Source: Porticoccaceae bacterium
GTDB taxonomy: Bacteria; Pseudomonadota; Gammaproteobacteria; Pseudomonadales; GM7GCV1
Direction of reading: 5' to 3'
DNA length: 44,483 bases
Assembly: GCA_018662305.1 (NCBI GenBank)
Contig: JABJGI010000133.1
Location: 1 to 44,483, forward strand
Numbering within the stretch: position 1 is the first letter of the stretch; every line of letters begins with the position of its first letter. Below, piece by piece: positions 33,123 to 39,128 of this stretch. The notes below the pieces were generated by a model. It had not been told where the DNA came from. It made no database searches and saw only the letters and a program-made list of their open reading frames with translations. Both the position numbers and the translations under genes were made by a program.

Positions 33123-33322
33123 AATCTGCTCTCCCCCAAAGAGCCGACAGACGGAATCCCTTGTAACCTATCGACGACTAAAGATTTATCAAGAATATAG
33201 AGGATGGCCCGCAGGCGGACAAGTTACCGCAAGATAACTAAAGGTCTAGCTTGGGATTAAATTGAGAATATGGTGCCCGGGGCCGGAATCGAACCGGCAC
33301 GGCCGTGAAGCCGAGGGATTTT

Positions 33323-34016
33323 CTTACCAACTACAACTTTCGCTGCTGCGATTTAATATCGCATTTGTGGTCTGGACTTTCTCTTCACCATATCTCAGAG
33401 TATTTACTCAAAGACTTAGGCAGGAGCCGTCAAGTCTCTACACTTTCCAAGGAGCGGAGCATGAAGCTACACAAGTATTCTGAAGATGCCTTGAGAGAAG
33501 CCGTTAGTGCTTCAACTTCAATGCGACAAACCCTTCAAAAACTAAATGTTGCACCATACGGCGGCAATTATGACGTGTTGCGAAAGGCCATCCGTCATTT
33601 TGATCTGGATACTTCTCACTTTACTGGCCAAGCATGGAACAAAGGAATGCAGCTCTCTTGCAGAAGGCCTTTAGAGGATTACCTTACGAATAAAGTTCCT
33701 ATCCAGTCCTATAAACTGAAGAATCGTCTCTTACGAGAAAACATCCTCAGCCGAAAGTGTTCCAGTTGTCAGGCGGAAGATTGGCTAGGCCAACCTATTC
33801 CGCTAGAGCTTGATCACGTCAACGGAGACAACAAAGATAATCTACTGACAAATCTTCGTCTTCTCTGTCCTAATTGCCATGCTCTTACACCAACCTACAG
33901 GAGTAAGAACCGCACCAAGGCTTAGCTCGGGATTGCCACCATCATTAAATGCTGAGGTTTCCCCGAATTTGACTCCATTCACATCAGGCGTTTCCGACCT
34001 GCGTGCTCAAAGTTTT
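33323..34016 (-). ncRNA. Group I intron (694 nt) in the tRNA-Leu(UAA) anticodon loop, after U34
   Basis: Core elements on the minus strand: P TTCGGGGAAACCT (33955-33967), Q GGCAATCCCGAGC (33925-33937), R GTGTAGAGACTTGACGG (33427-33443), P7' AAGTC (33375-33379); P3 GGAGTC/GGCTCC; P1 CTT/GAG with U.G at the splice site; P9 GAAA loop; terminal G at 33323. Confidence 0.95.
33461..33925 (+). CDS. HNH homing-type endonuclease, antisense to the intron
   Basis: AAGGAG 6 nt before ATG 33461; MKLHKYSEDALREAVSASTSMRQTLQKL...DTSHFTGQAWNKG N-domain and CSSC...LELDHVNGDNKDNLLTNLRLLCPNCHAL zinc-binding HNH motif; stop at 33923-33925. Confidence 0.93.
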   Translation: MKLHKYSEDALREAVSASTSMRQTLQKLNVAPYGGNYDVLRKAIRHFDLDTSHFTGQAWNKGMQLSCRRPLEDYLTNKVPIQSYKLKNRLLRENILSRKCSSCQAEDWLGQPIPLELDHVNGDNKDNLLTNLRLLCPNCHALTPTYRSKNRTKA

Positions 34017-34076
34017 AAGTCCCTTGTGTCTACCAATTTCACCACCCGGGCATATTCATGAGTGGGGAAGCGCGCC

Positions 34077-35357: not shown

Positions 35358-37082
35358 CTAGGGTCCGCCCATACCTCCAACCATACCGCCACCCAGCCTG
35401 GCCGCTGCTTCGGCGTCTCTTCTAAGAATACCAGCAGTTTCAGCATGAGCTTCGAACTGAAGCGCCATTTCAGCTACTAGTTCTGGATGCTGGTCTGCCA
35501 CATTCTCGCCTTCACCTGGGTTCTCTGTCATTGAGTACAGCTCCCACTCTTCGGCAAAGGGTGCACGAAACATCTTCCAATCTTCATGGAAAAGAATGCT
35601 CTCACCCGCCTCATCTAAGCCAATATACTGGCCTTGATGTGGTTCAAACTCGGGATCCTCAATTACGCCAGCAAAGGACCTACCGCGAATGGGCAGCACT
35701 TGTGCTCCGGCGGCGTTGACACTGACCTCTTCAACACCAGCCAGATCCATAATGGTGGGCATAATATCCATCACTGTCAGCAGCGAGTTGCTAATTTGGC
35801 CATTCTGCATTGAAGCAGGTGGTGTAATGAATGCTGGAACCCGAATACCACCCTCATATTGAGACCCCTTGTCTTCACGAAAAGGCGCAGACTGAGCATC
35901 TGACCAGCCCTGTCCTAAATGGACCCAAGAGTTTCGGCGGCCAATATTTTCTATGTCATTGTTATAGCGATCAAAATTGCCACGAGGAGAGCGAATTTCG
36001 CCACCCTGCGGACCGTTATCGTTGTGATAAATGATATAGGTGTTGTCCAGTTTTCCAGATTCTTCCAGATAGCTGATCAGCCGACCAAATTCATGGTCGA
36101 GATGCTCTGTCATCGCAGCGTAGAGCTCCATAGTACGACTATGAAGTTGTTTATCTTCCTCCGAGAGCTCGTCCCAACTGGCGGCTTCTTCAGGGCAAAC
36201 TGAAGTATCGGCGTTGGCAGCCAATACGCCCATTTCCGCAGCACCTTGCTGGCGAGCGATACAGAGCGCCTCGTAGCCATCGTCGTAGTGGCCAACAAAC
36301 CTGTCTTCCCAGCCTGGGTAGACTTGCAGGGGCCAGTGAGGTGAAGTGGGTGAAAACCAAGCGAAAAACGGCTGATCAGCATCGCCTTCGCTGATAAATT
36401 CGATCATGTAGTCCACGTACGCATTAGTGGAATAAAAATCATCCGGCAGTGTGTCCATCATTTCCCCGTCTAGGAGATAGGGCATCACATCAAGGTGATC
36501 CGGACGAAAATGGTCATTACTGCCCCCGCTCATCAGCGCAAAGGTTCTTTCAAATCCGCGATCGTATGGAGTGTTCACGCCTATTTCAGAGCCGAGATGC
36601 CATTTCCCTGAAATATAGGTTTGATAGCCACCATCGCGCATTCGTTCTGCTAGCGTCAGCACTCGATCTGTAATAATTCCCTCATAACCTGGCAGTCCCA
36701 CATGTTCCGGCGCATGCGCATTGGCGTTCTGGGTTCCCACTCCCGCTTCATGGTTACCAGTACCGCTCATCAACATAGAGCGCGTTGGCGAGCAGCTAGT
36801 GGATACATGAAAGTTGGTAAGGCGAACACCCTGTAGAGCAATTTCATCGATGTTGGGCGTTGGGATATCTTTCCCTCCAAAAGCGCCAAGATCGGTATAA
36901 CCCATATCATCTGTTGTGAAGATAATAAAATTTGGACGCGTCTGGCTGTCTGAGCTTGTCTCTGCCATATCGTCCATTTCGACTGTGACGGATTCGGTAG
37001 ATTCCTGGCTGCAAGCAGACAAGATCAGCATAGCGGCAATGCCCGCAATCGCGGCGAGTTTTCTTTTAGTGGATTTGATCAT
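35358..37082 (-). CDS. Arylsulfatase, lipoprotein (paralogue A)
   Basis: Lipobox LILSAC; TDDMGYTDLGAFGG; CSPTRSMLMSGTGNHEAG sulfatase signature; GKWHLG. Confidence 0.95.
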   Translation of the reverse strand: MIKSTKRKLAAIAGIAAMLILSACSQESTESVTVEMDDMAETSSDSQTRPNFIIFTTDDMGYTDLGAFGGKDIPTPNIDEIALQGVRLTNFHVSTSCSPTRSMLMSGTGNHEAGVGTQNANAHAPEHVGLPGYEGIITDRVLTLAERMRDGGYQTYISGKWHLGSEIGVNTPYDRGFERTFALMSGGSNDHFRPDHLDVMPYLLDGEMMDTLPDDFYSTNAYVDYMIEFISEGDADQPFFAWFSPTSPHWPLQVYPGWEDRFVGHYDDGYEALCIARQQGAAEMGVLAANADTSVCPEEAASWDELSEEDKQLHSRTMELYAAMTEHLDHEFGRLISYLEESGKLDNTYIIYHNDNGPQGGEIRSPRGNFDRYNNDIENIGRRNSWVHLGQGWSDAQSAPFREDKGSQYEGGIRVPAFITPPASMQNGQISNSLLTVMDIMPTIMDLAGVEEVSVNAAGAQVLPIRGRSFAGVIEDPEFEPHQGQYIGLDEAGESILFHEDWKMFRAPFAEEWELYSMTENPGEGENVADQHPELVAEMALQFEAHAETAGILRRDAEAAARLGGGMVGGMGGP

Positions 37083-37214
37083 TTGGTCCCCAACAAAGGT
37101 GGTTTTCTAGCAGCGGGCATTTAACCACTAGACGTTAGCGAAATCGCTTCCCTGACCAGAATTTATTCTTAATGCCCTGTTAAGTGCAACTGAGCATTGA
37201 CCGCGCTGTAACCA

Positions 37215-38888
37215 CTAGAGCTGGCGTGGAACCATGCCCAGTTCGGAAGCGTGAGACTCAAATTTTGTGACCAGTTCAATCAAAATATCCGGCCTGTCCT
37301 GAGACAGGTCCTTCAACTCGTTTGGATCATCTGCGCGATTGTAGAGTTGCCAAACAGTGTCACCCATAGGACGAACAATCTTCCAGTCACTTTGAAGCAT
37401 AAAACTGAGCCCGGCATGGTCGAGAGGAATAGCCTCATCGGATGCGTGGATTTGTGCGGCTGGATTTTCGAGCAAGGATGCAAAGGAAGCACCGCGGATT
37501 GGCAATACTTCTGATGCTCGCGGATAGCTAGCCTCAGTAATTCCCGCCAGCTCCATAATGGTCGGCATCACATCCATAACGGTAACCATGGAATCGCTGA
37601 TGCGGCCAGGTTCACTAGTTTCAGGCGAGGTAATGAAGGCAGGAACACGTATTCCACCCTCATAGGGAGAGCTTTTTTGGTCCCGAAAAGGCGCCGAGTG
37701 CGCATCAGCCCAACCCTGCCCCAGATTGGCCCAGCTGTTTCTGCGACCCAAGTTTTCCAGGCTATTGTCAAACCGGCTTAGTGCAGAGCGACGATCAAAA
37801 ATCTCGCCCCCCTCGGGCCCATTGTCGTTGTGATAGATGATGTAGGTATTTTCTAGCTGGCCAGAACTTCCAAGATAATCCAAAACACGGCCTAACTCAG
37901 TGTCTAAATGCGCCACCATAGCTGCGTATAACTCCATGGTTCGACTATTAATGGCCTGTTCTTCCGCAGTTAGCTCGTCCCAGGGAGCGGCTATTTCCGG
38001 ACAAATACCTAGATCTGCACCCGCAGGTAAAACTCCAGCTTCATCAGCACCCTGTTGGCGCGCTAAACAGAGGGCTTCGTAGCCCGCGTCATAGTCGCCT
38101 GCGAAACGATCCCGCCAAGCTGGTAAAACCTGTAGCGGCCAGTGCGGGGCGGTAGGAGCAAAGTAGGCGAAAAATGGTTGATCACTGGACTCATTGGAAT
38201 CGATGTATTCAATGAGTTTGTCTACGTAGGTGGTGGTTGAATAGAAATCATCCGGCAGCCCCTCAAGGAATACACCATCTTCGACGTAGGGCACATCGGG
38301 AGCTGGGCCTACATCGGGTTTTTGAGAGCCAGCCGGTAACGCAAAATGGTCCCATCCTCCGGGAATAAGCGCGAAACTCCGCTCAAACCCGCGATCCGAA
38401 GGCAGTACTGCGAAGTCTGTGCCCGCTAAGTGCCATTTGCCTGCCATATAGGTGTGGTACCCCTCAGCGTGCATGCGTTCTGGCAAACTGGCGACTCTAT
38501 CGGTCAGCCTTCCCTCGTAGTAAGTCCGTCCGACAAATTCCGGTAAGGCCCACTGGCTTCCCATTCCCGCTTCATGGTTGCCAGTGCCACTGAGCAACAT
38601 AGAGCGTGTAGGCGCGCAACTCACATTGGCGTGGAAGTTTGTAAGCCTTGTGCCCCCCATAGCCAGAGAATCAAGATTTGGCGTGGGAATATCGGTACCG
38701 CCGAATGCGCCCATGTCGGTGTAGCCCATATCGTCAGTCACAATGAGTAAGAAGTTGGGGCGTTCCTCCGGTCCCAACGCACTCTGCTGCGTTGTGTTTT
38801 CGGCTTCAATCTCTGGAGGGGGCAGCTCCGAACTACAACCAAAGAGCAATACACCAATTACTGAAAATATGTTGCCAATTCGAGTCAT
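37215..38888 (-). CDS. Arylsulfatase, lipoprotein (paralogue B)
   Basis: Likely start MTRIGNIF at 38888; lipobox LLFGC; CAPTRSMLLSGTGNHEAG; strongly similar to the adjacent sulfatase. Confidence 0.95.
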   Translation of the reverse strand: MTRIGNIFSVIGVLLFGCSSELPPPEIEAENTTQQSALGPEERPNFLLIVTDDMGYTDMGAFGGTDIPTPNLDSLAMGGTRLTNFHANVSCAPTRSMLLSGTGNHEAGMGSQWALPEFVGRTYYEGRLTDRVASLPERMHAEGYHTYMAGKWHLAGTDFAVLPSDRGFERSFALIPGGWDHFALPAGSQKPDVGPAPDVPYVEDGVFLEGLPDDFYSTTTYVDKLIEYIDSNESSDQPFFAYFAPTAPHWPLQVLPAWRDRFAGDYDAGYEALCLARQQGADEAGVLPAGADLGICPEIAAPWDELTAEEQAINSRTMELYAAMVAHLDTELGRVLDYLGSSGQLENTYIIYHNDNGPEGGEIFDRRSALSRFDNSLENLGRRNSWANLGQGWADAHSAPFRDQKSSPYEGGIRVPAFITSPETSEPGRISDSMVTVMDVMPTIMELAGITEASYPRASEVLPIRGASFASLLENPAAQIHASDEAIPLDHAGLSFMLQSDWKIVRPMGDTVWQLYNRADDPNELKDLSQDRPDILIELVTKFESHASELGMVPRQL

Positions 38889-39054
38889 TATTTTTCCCTC
38901 CAATATAATGACGAGCTGAATCCTATCTTCCTCCAATGATCAGGGGCAAATAGGTCGGCGCAGAAAGCGCTTTGACCCGCAATCGGAACCGGACGATTCT
39001 TGAAATTTCTGGATAGTCGGGGCGCCGACTTCATTCACGAAAATCAGCTAAATA

Positions 39055-39128
39055 TGGAGGCGCGGGTCGGAATCGAACCGGCGTACACGGAGTTGCAGTC
39101 CGCTGCATAACCACTCTGCCACCGCGCC
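39055..39128 (-). tRNA. tRNA-Cys(GCA)
   Basis: GGCGCGGTGGCAGAGTGGTTATGCAGCGGACTGCAACTCCGTGTACGCCGGTTCGATTCCGACCCGCGCCTCCA; GCA anticodon; encoded CCA. Confidence 0.96.

Follow-up and report, generated by a model that had tools for sequence, protein, structure and literature searches.

The group I introns in the tRNA-Leu(UAA) genes of cyanobacteria, plastids, and gammaproteobacteria are usually classed as IC3, and they are a classic case in the debate on whether introns are ancient or mobile. A gammaproteobacterial tRNA-Leu intron was reportedly described in 2002, and to our knowledge the known introns of these three groups are all ORF-less. The intron described here presumably belongs to subgroup IC3 as well, judging from its site and its resemblance to the cyanobacterial introns. 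It shares with the known introns the tRNA, the insertion site after U34, and the core helices, but its P6 is filled by an HNH endonuclease gene on the opposite strand. The cyanobacterial and plastid introns are reviewed in PMC4033280, and gammaproteobacterial ones are recorded for Beggiatoa (BOGUAY genome) and Thiomargarita in PMC4853749.

Three other systems resemble parts of this arrangement. The tRNA-fMet intron of Synechocystis encodes the PD-(D/E)XK endonuclease I-Ssp6803I (Bonocora and Shub 2001; Zhao et al. 2007, as cited in PMC3073962 and PMC4853749). It likewise pairs a group I intron in a bacterial tRNA gene with an endonuclease directed to the anticodon region, as predicted for our locus, whereas its ORF overlaps P1/P2 (PMC3073962), its endonuclease belongs to an unrelated family, and its tRNA is different. 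Homing endonuclease genes (HEGs) opposite to the ribozyme strand are known in nuclear rDNA group I introns, such as those for I-DirII and I-DsqI in Didymium (PMC9548176, PMC3679873, PMC3073962). These differ from ours in being His-Cys box genes in eukaryotic rDNA with Pol II expression and spliceosomal introns, and no bacterial or phage antisense HEG is among those described in the three papers. In collaborative homing, F-CphI acts with the psbA intron of cyanophage S-PM2 (PMC6083498, PMC2988022; Zeng, Bonocora and Shub 2009; Bonocora and Shub 2009). There, as in many loci below, a free-standing endonuclease gene stands beside an intron-bearing gene and the intron protects the carrier (a protection predicted in our case); the differences are that the target here is a tRNA and that one clade shows free, adjacent, and intron-embedded states together. 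Group I introns of tRNA-Leu(UAA), an anticodon-specific tRNA-fMet endonuclease, nuclear antisense HEGs, and collaborative homing are all already known.

The locus lies on the minus strand at 34051–33271 of the window, which is the whole stretch of 44,483 nucleotides analyzed here. Its features are listed in Table 1.

Table 1. Features of the split tRNA-Leu(UAA) gene and its intron in the window
Feature	Position	Strand	Basis
5' exon of tRNA-Leu(UAA), ending at U34	34017..34051	-	spliced-product call; uninterrupted identical exon in G002
Group I intron, 694 nt, last base G	33323..34016	-	empty orthologous G002 site; covariation in 28 introns; RF00028 26.1 bits
5' half of core (P1 3' strand, P2, P3 5' strand 33976-33971, P4, P5, P6 5' strand)	33921..34016	-	RF00028 match; 28-intron alignment
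HNH endonuclease gene, 154 aa, in P6 peripheral loop, antisense to ribozyme	33461..33925	+	phrog_10822 E 1e-47; 67%-identical congener copy; stop position conserved
Shine-Dalgarno AAGGAG, 6 nt before ATG, inside 3' strand of P6 extension	33449..33454	+	sequence
3' half of core (P7 5' strand 33436-33432, P3 3' strand 33428-33423, P8, P7 3' strand 33379-33375, P9, final G)	33323..33444	-	alignment; model R1
3' exon of tRNA-Leu(UAA), encoded CCA included	33271..33322	-	G002 comparison; ARAGORN on spliced sequence

A preliminary description, made from the sequence, had proposed that removal of minus-strand 34016–33323 leaves a complete tRNA-Leu(UAA), with the insert between U34 and A35. The 87-nt product of this removal is called tRNA-Leu(taa) by ARAGORN and folds as a class II tRNA. 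In the congener G002, both exons are present with 100% identity and directly joined, forming an empty site. This site is orthologous, since it adjoins the same beta-lactamase-like gene as in the window (75% identity). The uninterrupted exons in G002 show that the insert is exactly 694 nt and support the proposed insertion point, with a 4-nt (AAAA) ambiguity in the placement of the junction. Joining of the exons in silico for 46 related introns gives tRNA-Leu(UAA) in every case (46/46).

As anticipated for standard finders, ARAGORN and the Rfam tRNA model detected no tRNA at the split locus in the unspliced window; split tRNA genes and antisense genes of this kind are missed by standard annotation. 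The genome-wide search for a second tRNA-Leu(UAA), also suggested at the outset, found none in the 96.7%-complete assembly, whose remaining leucine tRNAs are UAG, CAA, and GAG. A search of the assembly for the spliced junction GGACTTAAAATCC gave no exact match and two matches with one mismatch, neither of them at any detected tRNA. UUA accounts for 91 of 8205 codons in sampled long ORFs of the window. Since UUA codons are in use and no other tRNA-Leu(UAA) was found, splicing is probably required for UUA decoding, in agreement with the initial supposition.

The Rfam model Intron_gpI (RF00028), proposed earlier as a check, matches the minus strand with E 2e-4, but the score of 26.1 bits is below the gathering score of 50. 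Its alignment is good in the 5' half and misplaced in the 3' half, owing to roughly 500 nt of foreign sequence inserted into P6. Among relatives with a short P6, three score 57–62 bits and a fourth 49.8 bits, indicating that the large P6 insertion explains the sub-threshold score of the window. A model of the 3' half (R1) scores the window at 125 bits, with the window sequence being among its training sequences.

We aligned 28 related introns with the P6 insertion removed and scored P1, P2, P3, P4, P7, P8, the helix before P9, and P9. Pairing in P3 is complete (100%), and double substitutions occur at 4/4 of its pairs (GGAG/CUCC, GGUG/CACC, GGGG/CCCC, CAGG/CCUG, CCUG/CAGG, and others); P9 is 100% paired with compensatory changes at 4/4. 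The helix before P9 (95% paired, 6/6 pairs with double changes) and P2 (91%, 4/4) behave similarly. P4 and P7 are 99–100% paired, P1 is 100% paired, and P8, a stem variable in length, is 73% paired. In P1, a U-G pair marks the 5' splice site in 28/28 introns, and the aligned 3' ends terminate in G, so the junction bases given in the preliminary description hold, as do the pairings that it named (P1, P2, P3, P4, P7, P8, and P9). The compensatory changes across the 28 relatives confirm the group I core on comparative grounds. The sub-threshold score is no disproof, judging from this alignment, in which the core helices with the P3/P7 pseudoknot that define a group I intron structurally are found.

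The antisense gene, which occupies two thirds of the intron, was missed in the preliminary description, although its account of the intron, site, boundaries, helices, and likely splicing dependence stands. The 154-aa protein has a helical N-terminal part and the HNH motif LELDHVNGDN...NLRLLCPNCHA. Cys100, Cys103, His119, Asn131, Cys136, Cys139, and His140, comprising the HNH residues and paired zinc cysteines, are invariant over 28 members. PHROG 10822 (HNH endonuclease) matches the full length (E 1e-47), though the family description states no link to tRNA-Leu or introns. Pfam HNH_3 gives 17.8 bits against a cut-off of 24.8, and Pfam HNH is also below its cut-off, as for a divergent member. 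The AlphaFold model has a pLDDT of 87.7 and a pTM of 0.55, and its best PDB match is the HNH enzyme EcoKMcrA, a weak hit (E 0.009) in a search with none at E ≤0.001.

The congener G001 carries an orthologous intron whose protein is 67% identical and free of stops. The window and G001 genes differ at 45, 33, and 100 sites in codon positions 1, 2, and 3, respectively; these counts were used because synonymous sites are saturated, which makes NG86 dN/dS unusable. Judging from this pattern, the antisense frame evolves as a protein. The gene thus has two features expected of an intron-encoded homing endonuclease gene, location in the intron and selection at the protein level, and it makes the intron a candidate mobile element.

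The layout of the two strands should be noted. The stop codon TAG (33923–33925) falls in the ribozyme core sequence GAGCUAAGCC, being the complement of CUA there. Nearly all antisense members stop inside the ribozyme core, whereas free-standing relatives use their own stops. A purine-rich Shine-Dalgarno match is present in most, not all, relatives. One DNA segment therefore serves as ribozyme core on one strand and carries the start and stop signals of a protein on the other. A sigma-70 promoter scan for the antisense gene yielded nothing useful.

From the anatomy, conservation, gene-level selection, association, and distribution of these loci, we infer with good confidence that the locus is a composite mobile group I intron whose antisense HNH endonuclease homes to tRNA-Leu(UAA). 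The minus-strand ribozyme would excise itself from the pre-tRNA-Leu(UAA), making the insertion harmless. The plus-strand endonuclease would cut in the anticodon stem-loop of intronless tRNA-Leu(UAA) genes, with RGACTT/AAAATCY as the predicted site. Repair from the intron-bearing copy would then spread intron and gene jointly, and the carrier would be protected because the intron splits its own target. The endonuclease, which outside introns is free-standing beside tRNA-Leu(UAA) with or without the intron, is proposed to have entered the P6 loop in antisense in bacteria and phages and in sense in a jumbo phage.

For bacteria, a single scan of 85,488 species gave 21 loci, in nearly all of which the core halves are 518–568 nt apart with the antisense gene in between. 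The carriers are mostly gammaproteobacterial MAGs; L055 is labelled Acidobacteriota and L045 Alphaproteobacteria. A class-wide search adds two loci, and the intact bacterial cases total 18, window included. At L052, L056, and L061, the intron has no gene, and an endonuclease gene lies antisense just 3' of the tRNA. Introns with and without the gene are intermingled in the core tree. Of 387 gammaproteobacterial genomes, 49 contain related introns according to a covariance model of the 3' half, against about 6 genomes with the endonuclease. Judging from this survey, the intron by itself is ordinary among gammaproteobacteria, and its presence is not new, as had been suspected and as the introns in PMC4853749 also indicate.

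That most gammaproteobacterial introns are without the gene, and that decayed copies exist (an in-frame stop in L059, deletions leaving shortened remnants in L063 and L103), would also suit an ordinary tRNA-Leu intron, inherited vertically or transferred with its locus, whose endonuclease gene is dead or decaying and whose spread, if any, is due to recombination at the tRNA locus. We regard this explanation as unlikely, since the copy in the window is intact, has a Shine-Dalgarno sequence, and retains the conserved catalytic residues, the congener pair indicates strong constraint on the protein, and the presence of the intron varies within one genus. The decayed copies are also compatible with a homing cycle.

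Several bacterial loci have peculiarities of their own. At G312:C1:1912038-1912404 (L103, L104), in a near-complete two-contig gammaproteobacterial genome, the antisense gene is decayed and the intron otherwise intact, which makes this locus well suited to the study of gene loss. L055 carries an antisense gene of the gammaproteobacterial clade within a clearly divergent intron core, possibly as the result of a separate transfer of the gene into another intron. The gene-less introns of L052 and L061 form a pair (support 100/99) with distinctive core changes, and their adjacent endonuclease genes are not sisters, which suggests that one gene-less lineage replaced endonuclease-bearing introns. 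In G001 (L024 2440–2457), a second copy of the tRNA 3' end (CCGGCCCCGGGCACCAT) about 170 nt downstream of the tRNA-Leu looks like an attachment-site duplication or a tRNA relic.

A link to tRNA-Leu(UAA) exists for 77 of the best 80 viral relatives of the endonuclease: 36 lie beside an intronless tRNA with a UAA anticodon, 31 beside an intron-bearing tRNA-Leu(UAA) with the gene outside the intron, and 10 inside the intron in antisense. No adjacent tRNA-Leu(UAA) was detected for the remaining three (L164, L165, and L184). The 10 in-intron contigs include L066 and L068 and two that are near-identical, giving nine distinct phage introns in all. In the jumbo phage LR756511 (L075), the gene lies inside the intron in the sense orientation, and its end overlaps the GUGUAGAGAC core. 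In annotated phages, a leucine tRNA is directly beside the gene in 12 of 20 clusters, compared with an expectation of 6.6 when positions are shuffled inside these same clusters of tRNAs (p 0.0006).

The arrangement of collaborative homing is found in these phages, with the 31 loci that combine an intron with an outside gene, and with near-identical genes next to intronless alleles. The endonuclease proteins of L145 and L147 are identical and are encoded on syntenic contigs, which are about 80% identical over 1.8 kb; the gene stands beside an intron-bearing allele in L145 and an intronless one in L147. Similar pairs are L149/L153, L070/L072, L201/L176, and L196/L177. An intronless RGACTTAAAATCY site would be the expected substrate of the L145/L147 protein, and neither phage allele would be cut. 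The free, adjacent, and embedded states correspond to the stages predicted by the collaborative-homing model.

Relatives of the endonuclease also occur beside tRNAs for Leu (UAG), Ser, Asn, and Gln, and the genes outside introns are found on either side and strand of the tRNA. A selfish free-standing endonuclease that targets some other sequence near tRNA genes, using the intron loop as a safe harbor without mobilizing the intron, could account for these positions. This is quite improbable, given that the clade of the window gene lies nearly entirely at tRNA-Leu(UAA) and that L145 and L147, which share one endonuclease, have alleles that diverge precisely at the tRNA. Finally, long frames can stay open where they overlap a functional RNA encoded opposite to them, but a fortuitous antisense frame can hardly be entertained, the HNH homology (which we count as already refuting it), the codon-position pattern, and the homologues standing alone outside introns all arguing against it.

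Group I introns were recorded in the tRNA-Leu(UAA) genes of phage loci L066, L068, L070, L074, L075, L136, L137, L142–L146, L149, L151, L152, L156–L159, L161–L163, L168–L174, L182, L183, L185, L193, L194, L196–L199, L201–L205, L207, and L211. They conflict with the picture of a 2014 review, in which all phage group I introns then known were in protein genes despite the many phage tRNA genes (PMC3984707).

In the trees, one large group (support 85/86) contains the bacterial and viral members that are linked to tRNA-Leu(UAA). The position inside or outside the intron changes at least 13 times on a larger quick tree. Distances between bacterial endonucleases and between their cores correlate weakly (r 0.23, p 0.06; L055 and phages excluded). 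The free-standing copies of L052, L056, and L061 nest inside the intron clade, indicating that some movement was out of introns, not in; they were therefore dropped as candidates for the ancestral free-standing state. L056 retains the 3' half of an intron in degenerate form, which aligns with a score of 44, whereas shuffled sequences reach 35 at most. Judging from this remnant, its free copy is a relic of an intron-borne gene, and the traffic went both ways. Comparison of the flanks gave no signal for L052 and L061.

The state of the anticodon stem in the carriers may bear on the predicted target. Intron-bearing alleles retain RGACTT/AAAATCY wherever both sides are readable, whereas the stems of intronless carriers are mostly altered, and in the five matched pairs the intronless partner departs from this stem in 5/5. 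A first control (44/49 vs 3/22 distinct stems, p 6e-10) was discarded as biased by its D-arm pattern, which few endonuclease-adjacent tRNAs match. In a looser control, which is confounded by lineage, the stem is found in 4/31 intronless carriers and 17/24 phage tRNA-Leu(UAA) genes without the endonuclease (distinct stems, p 2e-5), and the fully matched subset, with 3 members, is too small for a comparison. The stem difference is only suggestive, because half of the intronless carrier tRNAs are 74–77 nt long and of other lineages. Protection of the carriers against the enzyme that they encode seems to come from the intron or, more tentatively, from an altered anticodon stem.

Half of the intronless phage tRNAs with a UAA anticodon next to the endonuclease are 74–77 nt with a short variable region and are class I-like, unlike normal tRNA-Leu (L147, L072 1856–1931, L153, L175, L177, L186, L195, and others).

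A wider proposal, to which we give an even chance, is that the HNH clade is dedicated to the tRNA-Leu(UAA) anticodon stem-loop across phages and bacteria. Under this proposal, it persists only in genomes where the site is disarmed, whether by a group I intron or because the tRNA is divergent or has been replaced, and its members have repeatedly switched among positions that are free-standing, next to the tRNA, or embedded in the intron (antisense or sense). If true, the loci would form a natural series of every step in the formation of a mobile group I intron, and tRNA-Leu(UAA) introns, often treated as immobile and ancient, would be actively mobile. The free, adjacent, and embedded states provide a testable record of the joining of an endonuclease and a ribozyme into one mobile element.

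As far as the mainly open-access literature shows, there is no precedent for a HEG placed antisense in the group I introns of bacteria and phages, for an endonuclease family tied to tRNA-Leu(UAA), or for a single clade with all assembly stages, and no group I intron in a phage tRNA gene was known to the 2014 review (PMC3984707); priority is unproven in each case.

Upstream of the tRNA-Leu in the window, a pair of similar sulfatase-like genes encoding 574 and 573 aa stands side by side at 35358–38936, adjoined by a single tRNA-Cys at 39055–39128.
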